In this document: piece after piece, positions 34,223 to 46,200 of the stretch
Position numbering within the stretch: position 1 is the first letter of the stretch
Layout: each line of letters starts with the position of its first letter
DNA from: Apricaphanius iberus
Taxonomy: Eukaryota; Chordata; Actinopteri; Cyprinodontiformes; Aphaniidae
Reading direction: 5' to 3'
Assembly: GCA_028564705.1 (NCBI GenBank)
Contig: JAPXFQ010000256.1
Location: forward strand, 930,001 to 994,000
DNA length: 64,000 nt
Position numbers and translations under genes: made by a program
The notes under the pieces: model-generated
The model's database searches: none
What the model was told of the DNA's origin: nothing
Seen by the model: the letters and a program-made list of their open reading frames with translations, nothing else

Positions 34223-34283
34223 ATGATCATGGATGGCATGAAGATGTACCTGGTCTGTCGTATCTTTCTCCTAATAGTTTCAG
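34223..34283 (+). other. pdgfra: pdgfra signal-peptide exon
   Basis: This exon encodes [20 protein letters not shown] and ends in phase 1 before GTAAAC. The hydrophobic core [12 protein letters not shown] continues into VAPG of the next exon, as expected for a cleaved signal peptide. It is the only signal-peptide exon found for the locus; none precedes cassette B. Confidence 0.8.
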
Positions 34284-37200
34284 GTAAACATCTGTATGAG
34301 AGACACTGTGGTCTTCTAATTTTCTTTTGGGTCAAAAAAGTTCTCTAACATCGACCAACTTGTCTCACAGTTGCGCCTGGATTGTCCTTACCAACGATAC
34401 GGCCAGAAAGGGATGAGCTTGTGCTGGAGGCCAACTCCCTTGTCAACATCAGCTGTACTGGGGAATCAGAAGTAGTTTGGGAAGAACCTCTGCCAGATGA
34501 TACAACAGTTACTTCAGATGGTTTTACCTCAACTCTCCTAATTTACAACGCAACTATTAAGCACAGCGGCTTTTTTGAGTGCAGACATAAATATGGGGAA
34601 GGCCACCTTGGCGGTGTTGCAGAAATCTATATAATAGTAAAAGGTAAAAACAAAATCATTGTCATATGAAAATATTTGCTCCTCCACTCCTAGAATTAAA
34701 GAGGTTAACTAATGACAGGGTACGCAAAAATCATAAAGGTATAGCAGATTTTTTTCATGAAAACTGATAGAAGCAAACAAACTGCAACCAAAAACACATA
34801 AAAACACAAAAAGGACTAGAAAAATAATATACAAAGCAGCATCAAAATAGGTGGTTTAATTCAGCTGAGACCAAGCAAAACAGTAAAGGATTTATGAAAT
34901 ATGTATGATGCAGATGCTACAGATACAAGCCAAGGACAAACAGTGTGATTCCCATGAATTTGGTTGTATTAAGATATGTCCACGGAGTGGCAAACACTTC
35001 AAATCAACTAAATAATCAATAAACACATGATGAAAAAAAGAATTAATTCACCACTCATATCAGATCAAGCAATTGATAATGTTTTACTTCAATACAATTA
35101 AAAAGTTACCATAAAAGATTAACTGACTTACAAATGGTCACGTTTAGTTTTTTAAACAATCTGATAAAGAAGCATAAACAAAAATATTCCTTCTGCCCAT
35201 TTCCAGATCCTCACATGATGTTTGTCCCAGAGGAGCCAGAAGACCTAGTTGTTGTCTATGATGACGATATGATCATCCCATGTCGTACAACACAACTGAA
35301 CCATGTCGTTGAATTGATTAGAATCCCCACCAGAGAGAAGTTCTACAGGTTCTATGACTACAAGTTGGGCTTTGCAGGGGAAGTCTCTCCTGGCCAGTAT
35401 CTGTGTGAGGTCACAGTTAATGGCCAGACTTTTCAAAGTGCCATCTACACCGTAAAAAGCAATGGTAAGTCAGAACAAAATTATTCATAATCTTTCAGAG
35501 TATTTGCCATTAATTTGAAGCTACTTGCTGGAGTTTTCTGTAAAATCATTCAGTCTCACTTACACATAGTTAGAAAAATGACTTATTCAGTTTTTCTATC
35601 TGCTTCTATAATTTTTTTTTTGTATATTGTTATTTATTCAAGATAAAATGCACCCAAAAACAAACTCCGACTAGCACAGTTGTCTGATGACATCACAAAA
35701 GGCAACTTTACAGATATTTCAATTACGTCCATTTGAATTTAGTTTTTGTTATTTTTTCCCTCTTGATCCCATAGTTTTAAACAAATCCCCTTTTCAAAGA
35801 AGTTTAATTGTATTATGTGTGCCTCAAGCAAAAGGTTTAAGCTAGGGATGTAACAATACCACTTTTGTAAAACTGATATGATGCCTATACTTGGATCCGG
35901 GTACTTGCCAATACCGAGTAACAATGACTATACTTCTACCTCACACAAAAAATGCAATAAATTAGCAGACAGGTTTCATTTTCTTCTCTGCTTGTTGCAA
36001 CAAATTATAGTGTATTGGATTAAAAATAAAATATTTATAAAAATGATCACAGTACTAACATTTCAAGGGAAAATAAACATTTTCTGTGAAATGATTGCAG
36101 AGTTTCTACATTTTAGGTATTGATTCATGGTATCGATTAACTACATACTAAATACAGATACAAGTACATTAGAATGGTATCGGCCTTGATACCCAATACC
36201 AGTGTCATCTCGGTGTATACCTAATTTAAGCCACCAATTTAGGTCAAAACTTTAAACATCTGAGGTGGAACCCCTTGCTATTTAAATATAACTTGAATAT
36301 ATGGTGTAATCTGTCAAAATTGCTTGTCTGCCTCAGCATTTATAAATGCCAGCTGATCAGCTTGATTTTTTTCACATCCTGTCCATGTTTACACTCATAC
36401 AAGCTTAGAATGCAGTGTTTTGCTGCATTTTGTGTGTCTGAGAATGACAAACTCATCAGCCAGCGTGATAAATGAGGTCATGGTAATCAACCTGTCACCA
36501 TCTTGGGCCCTGTGAGACGCCAATGCTGATAGCCTCTCTGTGGTGGTCCCTCCTGCAGAACCTGAGGAAGTGAACGACTTTGAGGTGGAAGTCAAAGCCA
36601 GTGAAGAGACAGTGAGAATCGGGCAGCCCTTTAACATCTCCTGCATCGGACCCTTTGGAGGAGCGTTTCATCAGCAGTGGGTTCATCTGAAAACACAGGC
36701 AAGATGCGATCATTTCTTCTCTTGTATTTCTGTCACCTCAAAACTTTTCTGTCTTTATCCAGAATTCCTTTAAGTCATATTTCTCTTAGTCTCCAGTCGT
36801 GTTTTCATGCCAGTGAGATAGATAACCATATATGTATTTAGGACCCAGACATTTACTCGCATGTATTAATTTAGCCAATCTCTATGTCAAAGCAAAGTAT
36901 ATGTTAGGAAATAATGTCTTGATTGGGACAACATACATTAAAAAAACTCAATGTGACAGTTAACCCAGTGTCAAAGAGTCTGACAGGAAGGTTAAAGGTT
37001 CAGGACATATGTCAGAAGGAAAGGAGGCAGCTCAAAGGACAGTAAATAACAGGATGGTAAATCCTTTGAACCTGCCAACCGTGAGAGCTGTAGGGTGGAT
37101 AATGTCTCCACATGACAGCCAGCTTAACATCTAAGGCTTTTAAAGCTTTAGTTTAAAGAGTCTAAGACAGTTTTACATAGAAAACCTTGCAAAGGTATTC

Positions 37201-43200: not shown

Positions 43201-46200
43201 TAGTCTGCTGCAAACCAGTGAGACCAGGTTGGTATCTGTTGCTATTCAATTGAAGGGGAATGAAGAGTTACTAAAAATTGTCTGACGCTATTTTGACCTT
43301 CTGTGGTGATTGCAGTTTCTGTTGCTCTTATTTTTCACAGCTACAGGAGTATCCTTACCCTGATCCGGGTGAAGGAGGAGGACAGAGGGAAATACACCAT
43401 GCGAGTGGAGAATGGAAACCAAAGCCATGAAGTCAGCTTTAACTTGGTGGTCAAAGGTAAAGAGAAAGACTTAATCATACACATTTAATTTGAAATATTA
43501 GCCTACTTTCAATCTTTGCACACACTGATATGCTCAAACGAGGGCTGGGCAATATGGCGTCATATCAATATCACGATATATTGAGCATATTACCTTGACA
43601 ACAATAAATGAACGATAACTACTCCATCACAAAAAAATTTTTTTTGTCTAGATTGGGCTGTTGTTTTTCCTCTTCCTCCTCGACCAGCTCTATTCCTGCT
43701 GCTTCAGTATTTGAATATTCTTCCAGTTGATCACCTTCCTAATCTTCCAATACAAATAGACGAGCAACAGTGAGCAAGAGACTGAGGTTATGAGACAAAA
43801 TAGTGTTTACATTTACATCAAAGCACAGGTAGGATCAGCCAGCAGTGGCTATGGACATGTTAGAGCTAACAGCTGCTCCTACTGTAGCTTGACCTGGCTG
43901 TCTAAAGCCTGATGAGAAAATGCCACAGCAGCACCGATGCTTGGTGAGAAAAGTAACAAGGATACTTTCTAAATGTCAATGTCTCAAAAGTCTCCAATAA
44001 CACAAAAAAGTTGCTAGATTTGTCACTAGAGCAGTCTAAAAACTCATTAAATGTGGCAATAAGGTAGATAAACACTGCTGGATGGGGTGGAGTCACACGA
44101 CTGCACGTTGTCACTTGATTCAACCCAATCAAGTCTTTAACGTAGTATGTCTGCAACATTTTAAAGCGCATGAGCATCACCAAACTACACATCTTTCTTT
44201 TTTTTTAAACACAGAAAACATCAACATGAGGAAAACTGTATTGTTTACAGTCATACATTTAGATATCATTTTCGGGTTATCAACTTGCTCTAGCTCAAAC
44301 CTTGTATTTCTCACAATTTTACAGTGCCTGCAGTCATTGTGGACCTTATGGACATCCACCATGGTTCAGCCTCACGACAGTCTGCTGTGTGCATTGCCAA
44401 GGGGGAGCCTACTCCTGTTGTGGAGTGGTTTATATGCAAGAACATCAAACAGTAAGAGTTACTTTGAAAATGACCCTATGTGGCACTGTGTTACTTAACT
44501 TCCCTCTGGGATCAATAAAGTTGAATTAAATTTGAATTTTAATGTTTGGTTGTTATTTTCAATATGTGGCTGCATAGCCAGTGCAATTTATATATTCGTT
44601 CTTTGCTCTCCTCAAGATGTGCAAACGAAACATCTTCTTGGGCGCCTCTACCCACTAACTCCACAGAGATCATGATCGAGTCACACTTTGGTGAGGATAG
44701 CAACTTGGAGAGCGAAGTCATGTTTGGTCATCTGGAAAGCACTCTGGCGGTGCGATGCCTTGCTAAGAATGAAATGGGGACTGTAAGCAGGGAGATCAAA
44801 TTGGTCTCTAATGGTAAGGACACACCTGGCCAGCCAAGTACTTGGCTTTTAACATACATTAGATGTTATTTGCAATTGCCTTCTGATGAACAGTGTTAAG
44901 TCTTGTGCGAGTTACATTAGCTGGAAAACGATGGGTTTGTGATGAGACAACTGTTAATGGTCTATTAGAGAAAAGAGAGTTATCATTGTGAGAGAGAATT
45001 TAAATAAATCCCAGATGTTAGATCATTTGCTTCACACAAATAAGCTTTACACCCCTATCTCCACTCTCTAACTATTCTGCAAGAGTCTAGTCTCATCCCC
45101 CACCCTGTATTTTTATATAATCTTCCCAACACCCCTTTTTGGTGCTAGCTGTCAAGACAGCCTGTGGTTTAAAACCTAATCTTATGGGGAAATTTCCATA
45201 AAAAAAAAGCATGACCTATTTTATTGCAACCATGCATGTGATGAATAGGGTTCAGAATGTAACATATGCAATCACTGGCTTTCCCTACAAACAGGCCCTC
45301 ACCCTGAGCTGACGGTAGCTGCTGCTGTGCTGGTGCTCCTGGTCATTGTCATCATCTCACTCATTGTCTTGGTTGTTATCTGGAAGCAGGTACTGTGGGA
45401 ATCATTTGGCAGTTTCATTCCTCTCATGCTGCCCCGTTATGTTGCTCATTGTCATATTTCAAGCACTCATTTGATGTTACAGATTGAACCAAACTTTTAT
45501 GTTATCCTGTACATGTTTATGCTAACATGAGATTTAATTAGAGTGCATTCGGTTTTGCAGCTCTGCCTGGTAAAAGATAGACCGACATATTCTGGGATTT
45601 TCCATGGATAACCATTAATTTATATGGACTCTGCCTTCCAGAAACCACGGTATGAGATTCGCTGGAGGGTCATAGAATCCGTGAGTCCAGACGGCCATGA
45701 GTACATATATGTGGATCCCATGCAGCTTCCCTACGACTCCAGATGGGAGTTCCCACGTGACAGACTTGTGCTTGGTGAGTCGAATGTCTTGATAATGTTC
45801 TAGAACCAAATGGTTCCCTGTGGAGATGTTACAACTTTTTAATCTCACTCTACCTTTGAAGTGAGGCTGTGATAAGATGAGTGGGTTTCTGATGGCTGGC
45901 ATTCAGTTTGACCTATTGATCAAGGGGAAATTCAGCCACTGAAAAAGCCATTGAGGATAAAGTAGATTATCTGTGTCTTCCTTCACTCTGAATGTATGAT
46001 CTATATACCTTATGGTAATTCTCAGGTCGGATCCTGGGCTCTGGGGCCTTTGGGAAGGTGGTTGAGGGGACTGCCTATGGACTCAGTCGCTCTCAGCCTG
46101 TTATGAAGGTGGCAGTGAAAATGCTCAAACGTAAGTTTAAGAAACTTTGATTTAAAAGACTTCTCACCCATGCTACTAAAAGCCTCAGATTGGTCACCAT

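Follow-up and report, generated by a model that had tools for sequence, protein, structure and literature searches.

PDGFRA, a much-studied developmental and cancer receptor, is described with five Ig domains. Its relatives PDGFRB, KIT and CSF1R likewise carry five Ig domains each, and VEGFR has seven. We analyzed a 64,000-nucleotide stretch of the Apricaphanius iberus genome (contig JAPXFQ010000256.1, hereafter the window), in which one gene has an exon layout resembling that of mammalian PDGFRA. Rebuilding this gene exon by exon yielded a single open frame of 4380 nt, or 1459 amino acids plus a stop, distributed over 28 coding exons with a coding span of 21.4 kb (34223-55627), and the only stop of the spliced frame is the terminal one. 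One signal exon is followed by a first set of D1-D4 exons, designated A (six exons, 1143 nt), a second set, designated B (six exons, 1155 nt), and one D5, membrane and kinase part (Table 1). Intron phases are identical between the two sets, A2 and B2 (258 nt) and A4b and B4b (116 nt) are equal in length, and the D1-D4 unit has phase 1 at either end. The A3a donor, after position 36698, is GC instead of GT (CAG followed by gcaagatg), and the remaining 26 introns are GT..AG. A preliminary description of this DNA had reported the same frame, exon number and protein length without a break, two intact, phase-matched D1-D4 sets with one signal exon and one D5/kinase part, and a 98-bp intron between the sets. 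The rebuild reproduced each of these features and, together with 128 database rows considered below, confirmed its overall claim that a single receptor gene carries D1-D4 twice and encodes nine Ig domains.

Table 1 Features of the pdgfra locus in the window
Feature	Position	Strand	Basis
Homeobox exon of upstream neighbour	26087-26449	+	Pfam homeodomain E 1.1e-22
Signal-peptide exon, coding part	34223-34283	+	AG acceptor immediately upstream of 34211
A1, first copy of D1	34371-34643	+	exon rebuild, PDGFRA match
A2, first copy of D2	35207-35464	+	exon rebuild, PDGFRA match
A3a, first copy of D3, 5' exon, GC donor	36559-36698	+	exon rebuild, PDGFRA match
A3b, first copy of D3, 3' exon	39859-40021	+	exon rebuild, PDGFRA match
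A4a, first copy of D4, 5' exon	40796-40988	+	exon rebuild, PDGFRA match
A4b, first copy of D4, 3' exon; Q at the R383 equivalent	41551-41666	+	exon rebuild, residue comparison
A-to-B intron, 98 bp	41667-41764	+	exon rebuild
B1, second copy of D1	41765-42061	+	exon rebuild, PDGFRA match
B2, second copy of D2; ligand-contact pattern conserved	42142-42399	+	exon rebuild, PDGFRA match, residue comparison
B3a, second copy of D3, 5' exon	42523-42647	+	exon rebuild, PDGFRA match
B3b, second copy of D3, 3' exon	42766-42934	+	exon rebuild, PDGFRA match
B4a, second copy of D4, 5' exon	43038-43227	+	exon rebuild, PDGFRA match
B4b, second copy of D4, 3' exon; R and D of the salt bridge retained	43341-43456	+	exon rebuild, residue comparison
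D5, 5' exon	44325-44451	+	exon rebuild
D5, 3' exon	44617-44813	+	exon rebuild
Transmembrane exon	45295-45389	+	exon rebuild; helix in relative's model
Juxtamembrane exon	45642-45774	+	exon rebuild
Kinase exons 1-3 of nine	46026-46130, 47502-47612, 47999-48152	+	exon rebuild
Kinase exons 4-6 of nine	50332-50492, 50786-50901, 51401-51523	+	exon rebuild
Kinase exons 7-9 of nine	51615-51726, 53357-53456, 53606-53711	+	exon rebuild
C-terminal tail exon 1	54437-54669	+	exon rebuild
C-terminal tail exon 2, with stop	55480-55627	+	exon rebuild

The gene is a PDGFRA orthologue in which D1-D4 has been doubled in tandem. The A set with the signal peptide matched human PDGFRA D1-D4 at E 1.9e-51 and the B set at E 6.3e-76, values that speak against chance. 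The best PDB match was PDGFRA for A and B alike; both also matched D1-D3 or D1-D4 of the solved PDGFRB, KIT and CSF1R ectodomains, with scores lower than those for PDGFRA. The window kinase is split, aligns at full length, insert included, to PDGFRA rows, and is 81-85% identical to 12 five-Ig rows, seven of which are named tetrapods. Closeness to PDGFRA among the class III receptors was judged by PDB scores for the ectodomain and against PDGFRA rows alone for the kinase. Class III membership also calls for exactly five extracellular Ig domains, and the window receptor has nine. Tetrapod PDGFRA shares with the window gene a gsx2-type neighbour, D5, the membrane and juxtamembrane segments and the split kinase, but has five Ig domains, whereas the window gene carries an extra D1-D4 set ahead of the usual one. 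The upstream homeodomain exon beside the locus is, from synteny and the N-terminus, presumably that of gsx2. In zebrafish, gsx2, kita and kdr share a map interval with pdgfra, according to the available part of PMC5298878. When eight other open reading frames of the window were searched against Pfam, one gave the homeodomain, one a weak transposase zinc finger below the cut-off, and six no match.

VEGFR is similarly an Ig-domain receptor tyrosine kinase that exceeds five Ig domains, but the A set scored 178 bits against PDGFRA vs 72 against VEGFR2, making it improbable that VEGFR supplied the additional domains. Capture of exons from pdgfrb, kit or vegfr is disfavoured, since A matches PDGFRA best and groups with B in a tree composed without fish pdgfrb and kit. 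The predicted structure of a nine-Ig relative (P0124; mean pLDDT 79.4) has strands readable as nine Ig units plus a membrane helix. A structure search with the whole 996-residue model placed DSCAM and titin chains at the top, followed by KIT and CSF1R; with TM-scores by query of 0.10-0.25 among the matches listed, it adds no more than that the model consists of many Ig domains in a chain.

The nine-Ig architecture is old and clade-wide, and not peculiar to A. iberus. We gathered 163 database rows, 149 of them ray-finned fish PDGFRA, and all nine Ig segments plus the kinase were found in 128 of the 149. These rows include reedfish (P0121), sturgeon (P0100), gar (P0123) and bowfin (P0122), as well as eels, carps, catfish, salmonids, cod, percomorphs and killifish, so that the form is present in every major ray-finned group sampled. 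The premise of the preliminary description, five Ig domains in PDGFRA and related receptors, fails for ray-finned fishes; a second D1-D4 set in fish pdgfra, for which it had advised a search, is present in these same rows. The named rows among the matches listed (120 of 426) were all ray-finned fish. On indirect grounds, the nine-Ig form probably holds for zebrafish too; no Danio-named row appeared among the matches listed, where cluster members are unnamed, and the available part of PMC9977867 gives no zebrafish Ig count. A search of the open-access literature for a nine-Ig PDGFRA returned no recognised description. A2 is absent from the models of pike, Dallia and Kryptolebias, and the pike models possibly represent partial losses of the A set.

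On sequence comparison we favour one duplication in the ray-finned stem, which is not proven. In a 52-row tree the A sequences formed one clade (support 98/95) and the B sequences another (97/88), and in the best tree A and B together were separated from tetrapods at 97/97. Moreover, A and B are 57% similar in sturgeon and 48% in reedfish, more than either is to human (39-47%). These groupings count against the alternative that the doubling predates the split between ray-finned and lobe-finned vertebrates and that the A set was lost in tetrapods. We regard this older origin as rather unlikely, although the AU test failed to reject a clade of B with tetrapods (p = 0.057; p = 0.046 for A with tetrapods) and B was nearer than A to human in 22 of the 22 species compared. 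Site patterns in reedfish and sturgeon, used for dating with human PDGFRB D1-D3 as the sole outgroup, also lean slightly to B with tetrapods, on too few informative columns (0 v 2 v 0).

The two sets were compared at six residues with known parts in ligand binding or D4 contact (139, 206, 242, 383, 385 and 388, human numbering), whose roles in human receptors are described in the available parts of PMC10965988 and PMC8031885. Across 129 rows (the 128 plus the window), position 139 is hydrophobic in 114 A and 128 B sequences, 206 is Tyr/His in 5 and 127, 242 is I/V/L/M in 25 and 129, Arg383 occurs in 8 and 129, 385 is Lys/Arg in 2 and 129, and 388 is Asp/Glu in 125 and 129. Five or six positions fit in every B sequence (129/129) and in A of reedfish and sturgeon only; two or fewer fit in 110 of the 129 A sequences and in none of B. 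The Arg/acidic salt-bridge pair of D4, needed for activation, is intact in B4 in all 129 rows. In A4 the activation arginine is replaced in 121/129, and the lysine two residues further on has become hydrophobic in 114/129, a change of the type that favours dimer formation in human PDGFRA. In gar, bowfin and teleosts, A has for the most part lost the contact residues, with Arg383 retained in seven teleost rows (tarpon, three eels, two bonytongues and one gadiform) and one or two other contact residues in some. Given these seven rows, the largely hydrophobic position 139 and a complete reedfish A set, a putative loss of ligand binding by A is not universal. The six Ig cysteines of D1-D3 are kept in A in 127-129 of the 129 rows.

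We consider it likely that D1-D4 of PDGFRA was doubled once, most probably in the ray-finned stem, and that B binds ligand while A was reassigned as an extension under selection. The best reading of these comparisons is that B with D5 would be the working receptor and A an old, constrained, faster-evolving N-terminal extension. In such a receptor, produced by tandem duplication of the six-exon unit, PDGF would bind B2-B3, the ligand would join two chains, and B4-B4 and D5 contacts would bring the kinases into alignment, following the pattern of other class III receptors. A1-A4 would form a further arm, which in most fishes may no longer bind PDGF in the usual way and may be held by selection for another task, such as extending reach, sterically controlling the access of ligand or co-receptor, or binding a partner of its own.

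It is improbable that A is instead a second working PDGF-binding unit, giving two ligands per chain and a bivalent receptor. The complete reedfish A pattern (I-H-I-R-K-D) and the fit of sturgeon A at five of six positions speak for it, but Tyr/His 206 and an aliphatic 242 occur together in none of the other 127 nine-Ig rows, the great majority of A sequences fit poorly, and A2, missing from the three models noted above, is the A domain with the greatest column entropy. We raise the tentative possibility that the front set began as a second full PDGF-binding and D4-contact unit, which reedfish A still resembles, and became, toward gar, bowfin and teleosts, a new arm with its own partner or self-contact, the A4 replacements given above being in line with this.

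Comparably doubtful is the proposal that A and B are alternative cassettes, the signal exon being spliced to A1 or to B1 to make nine-Ig and five-Ig receptors. The phase of the unit would keep a signal-to-B1 jump in frame, yet just one of the 149 ray-finned rows lacks A wholly (P0152, reedfish, 1067 aa), in annotated models that sample splicing poorly. The first residues of P0152 resemble a translated intron end, and reedfish also has a nine-Ig row.

The whole nine-Ig frame was present in 17 of 17 'lgn' rows, whose longest contigs measure 4628-7561 bp. At no more than 7.6 kb, vs 21 kb for the window gene, these contigs look like spliced RNA, and we infer that they are. Joining of A to B exons in transcripts, on which the preliminary description had made its extended receptor depend, thus finds support in relatives, as judged by size alone. 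An explanation by errors of assembly or gene modelling, or by exon decay, has the GC donor of A3a as its sole point in favour and is ruled out by the nine-Ig relatives, the same arrangement recurring in 128 database rows and the A exons being open, with cysteines retained and A3 and A4 93-94% identical to those of the nearest relative, P0001.

If nine Ig domains are the usual ray-finned form, work that transfers ligand binding, antibody epitopes or extracellular mutations from fish to mammals or back has to take the four additional domains into account. In a nine-Ig gene, knock-down tools directed against the foremost Ig exons would strike the A set and not the ligand-binding set. The gene can further serve as a natural experiment: in reedfish the second unit looks intact, in most teleosts it is without most contact residues, and the pike models without A2 may be a partial loss. 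If the front set did turn into a new arm, PDGF-alpha signalling in ray-finned fishes would have an added receptor input that tetrapods lack.

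Exon-by-exon reconstruction of pdgfra confirmed the single reading frame proposed in the preliminary description: 28 coding exons amount to 4380 nt and encode 1459 residues, with one stop. The doubled block described there was likewise recovered, as two sets, A (1143 nt) and B (1155 nt), each of six exons encoding Ig domains D1-D4 (A1-A4 and B1-B4), lying between the signal exon and the single-copy D5, and the intron phases of the two sets agree, as had been claimed. Two of the six A/B exon pairs are equal in length, A and B of the window share 30% identity, and 26 of 27 introns carry GT..AG boundaries. 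When compared with solved structures, both sets had human PDGFRA as the top match (A, 178 bits, E 1.9e-51; B, 259 bits, E 6.3e-76).

Features in and around pdgfra (pdgfra and the homeobox exon lie on the + strand; suffixes a and b denote 5' and 3' exons)
Feature	Position	Observation
Homeobox exon	26087-26449	Upstream of pdgfra; presumably gsx2, by gsx2-pdgfra synteny, and positioned as expected
pdgfra coding exons	34223-55627	
Exon A3a	36559-36698	Donor GC, not GT (CAG/gcaagatg)
Stretch within intron A3a-A3b (intron 3160 bp)	38400-39330	Resembles, by eye, an old LINE reverse-transcriptase fragment
Stretch within intron A3b-A4a	40090-40470	By eye, what we take to be a common fish short interspersed repeat
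Exon A4b	41551-41666	Equivalent of human Lys385 hydrophobic in 114/129 nine-Ig rows; such changes of Lys385 are activating in tumours
Downstream of pdgfra	60100-60350, 61350-62080	Short tandem-repeat run; stretch with long overlapping open frames

A second D1-D4 set was sought in fish PDGFRA proteins, as the preliminary description had suggested. Proteins were searched three times, the queries being set A of the window (best 120 of 121 matches), set A of sturgeon (best 120 of 152) and set B of reedfish (best 120 of 426); the matches listed comprised 163 different rows. These were 12 five-Ig PDGFRA proteins of 1012-1151 aa (seven from tetrapods and five aligning like them), two kdr-like rows, and 149 rows of ray-finned fish PDGFRA, to which some species contribute more than one row and which include 17 'lgn' rows assigned by similarity. 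When a row was counted as nine-Ig if every one of the nine Ig segments and the kinase was covered at 70% or more, 128 of the 149 ray-finned rows among the matches listed qualified, or 129 of 164 with the window. They represent reedfish, sturgeon, gar, bowfin, eels, tarpon, bonytongues, herrings, carps and loaches, catfish, characins, salmonids, cod and many percomorphs, indicating that nine-Ig PDGFRA is a property of the clade and not of one species. The remaining 21 rows are short or lack some parts. The whole A set is absent from one row of the 149 among the matches listed, reedfish P0152, whose N-terminal residues resemble a translated intron end; reedfish also has a nine-Ig row. In four models from Esox, Dallia and Kryptolebias (P0082, P0090, P0093, P0103) the A2 exon is missing and the flanking sequence joins cleanly in frame, possibly reflecting either loss, giving eight-Ig receptors, or an annotation gap. 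Models P0101 and P0102 begin within A3b without a signal peptide, and were likely annotated from an internal methionine.

The gene is PDGFRA by descent, and its nine-Ig architecture places it outside class III receptors as defined by five Ig domains. Databases already contain long nine-Ig proteins that were named PDGFRA by automatic annotation; titles and abstract openings in one open-access library, a scope that takes in few subscription journals, yielded no description of this form.

All 17 'lgn' rows are nine-Ig, with longest contigs of 4628-7561 bp. Because a frame of ~1460 codons fits within these contigs, compared with a coding span of 21.4 kb in the window, we infer that they derive from spliced RNA. 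The 'lgn' row nearest to the window, P0001, shares 85% identity with it in A and 99% in the kinase. For zebrafish, PMC5298878 lists gsx2, kita and kdr in one interval with pdgfra, and reports that exon 14 loss or truncation yields a protein that stops before the membrane. Assuming one non-coding first exon, exon 14 would be B4b in the nine-Ig layout but would encode part of the kinase if the gene had five Ig domains; the lesion thus fits, indirectly, a nine-Ig zebrafish pdgfra.

In a tree of 52 rows (both sets from each of 22 species, plus seven tetrapods and human PDGFRB), every A fell in one clade (98/95) and every B in another (97/88), with A and B together separate from tetrapods (97/97). 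The two clades point to a single D1-D4 duplication that predates the reedfish split, with both copies retained. Total branch length was 10.49 in the A clade versus 5.80 in the B clade (1.8-fold). Together with A-B identities of 57% in sturgeon and 48% in reedfish, the tree also favours, without proving, a duplication after the split from tetrapods. The AU test barely rejected A grouped with tetrapods (p 0.046) and did not reject B grouped with tetrapods (p 0.057). Site patterns, which are few in number, lean slightly to B with tetrapods (A-B versus B-tetrapod versus A-tetrapod: 0, 2 and 0 for reedfish and sturgeon jointly; 1, 5 and 0 for reedfish; 5, 5 and 1 for sturgeon).

According to PMC10965988, human Arg383 and Asp388 are counterparts of D4 salt-bridge residues required for activation, and replacement of Lys385 by a hydrophobic residue drives PDGFRA dimers; PMC8031885 assigns Ile139, Tyr206 and Val242 importance for PDGF binding. 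These positions were scored in the 129 nine-Ig rows, window included, among the matches listed.

Contact residues in sets A and B (human PDGFRA numbering)
Position	A	B
139 hydrophobic	114/129	128/129
206 Tyr or His	5/129	127/129 (His 126)
242 I/V/L/M	25/129	129/129
Arg383	8/129 (Gln 81, His 38)	129/129
385 Lys or Arg	2/129 (hydrophobic 114)	129/129
388 Asp or Glu	125/129	129/129

B fits at five or six of the six positions in all 129 rows. A fits at one or two in 110 rows, at three in 13 and at four in 4. The sturgeon A set fits at five and the reedfish A set at all six, and these are the only two rows in which both 206 and 242 fit in A. Arg383 is retained in seven teleost A rows (tarpon, three eels, two bonytongues and Muraenolepis). 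The six D1-D3 cysteines are retained in A in 127-129 of 129 rows. Judged by mean column entropy, A is more variable than B in D2 (1.57 versus 0.90), D3 (1.47 versus 0.94) and D4 (1.34 versus 1.13), whereas the two are about equal in D1 (1.41 versus 1.36).

A structure model of the 996-residue nine-Ig relative P0124, built from a 45-row alignment, had a mean pLDDT of 79.4 and a membrane helix at 901-932, and its predicted strands can be read as nine Ig units in series. Its pTM of 0.45 makes relative domain placement unreliable. Foldseek matched the model to DSCAM, titin, KIT, CSF1R, VEGFR1 and PDGFR chains.

In the best-supported mechanism, PDGF ligand would bind B2-B3, contacts between receptors would run through B4 and D5, and the kinase would operate as in other PDGF receptors. 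A1-A4 would form an additional arm, folded and constrained, from which the usual contact residues have mostly gone in gar, bowfin and teleosts. A bolder idea, self-contact through A4, is compatible with the hydrophobic residue found there at position 385. The additional arm may serve to extend reach, shield the binding site or engage a partner of its own.
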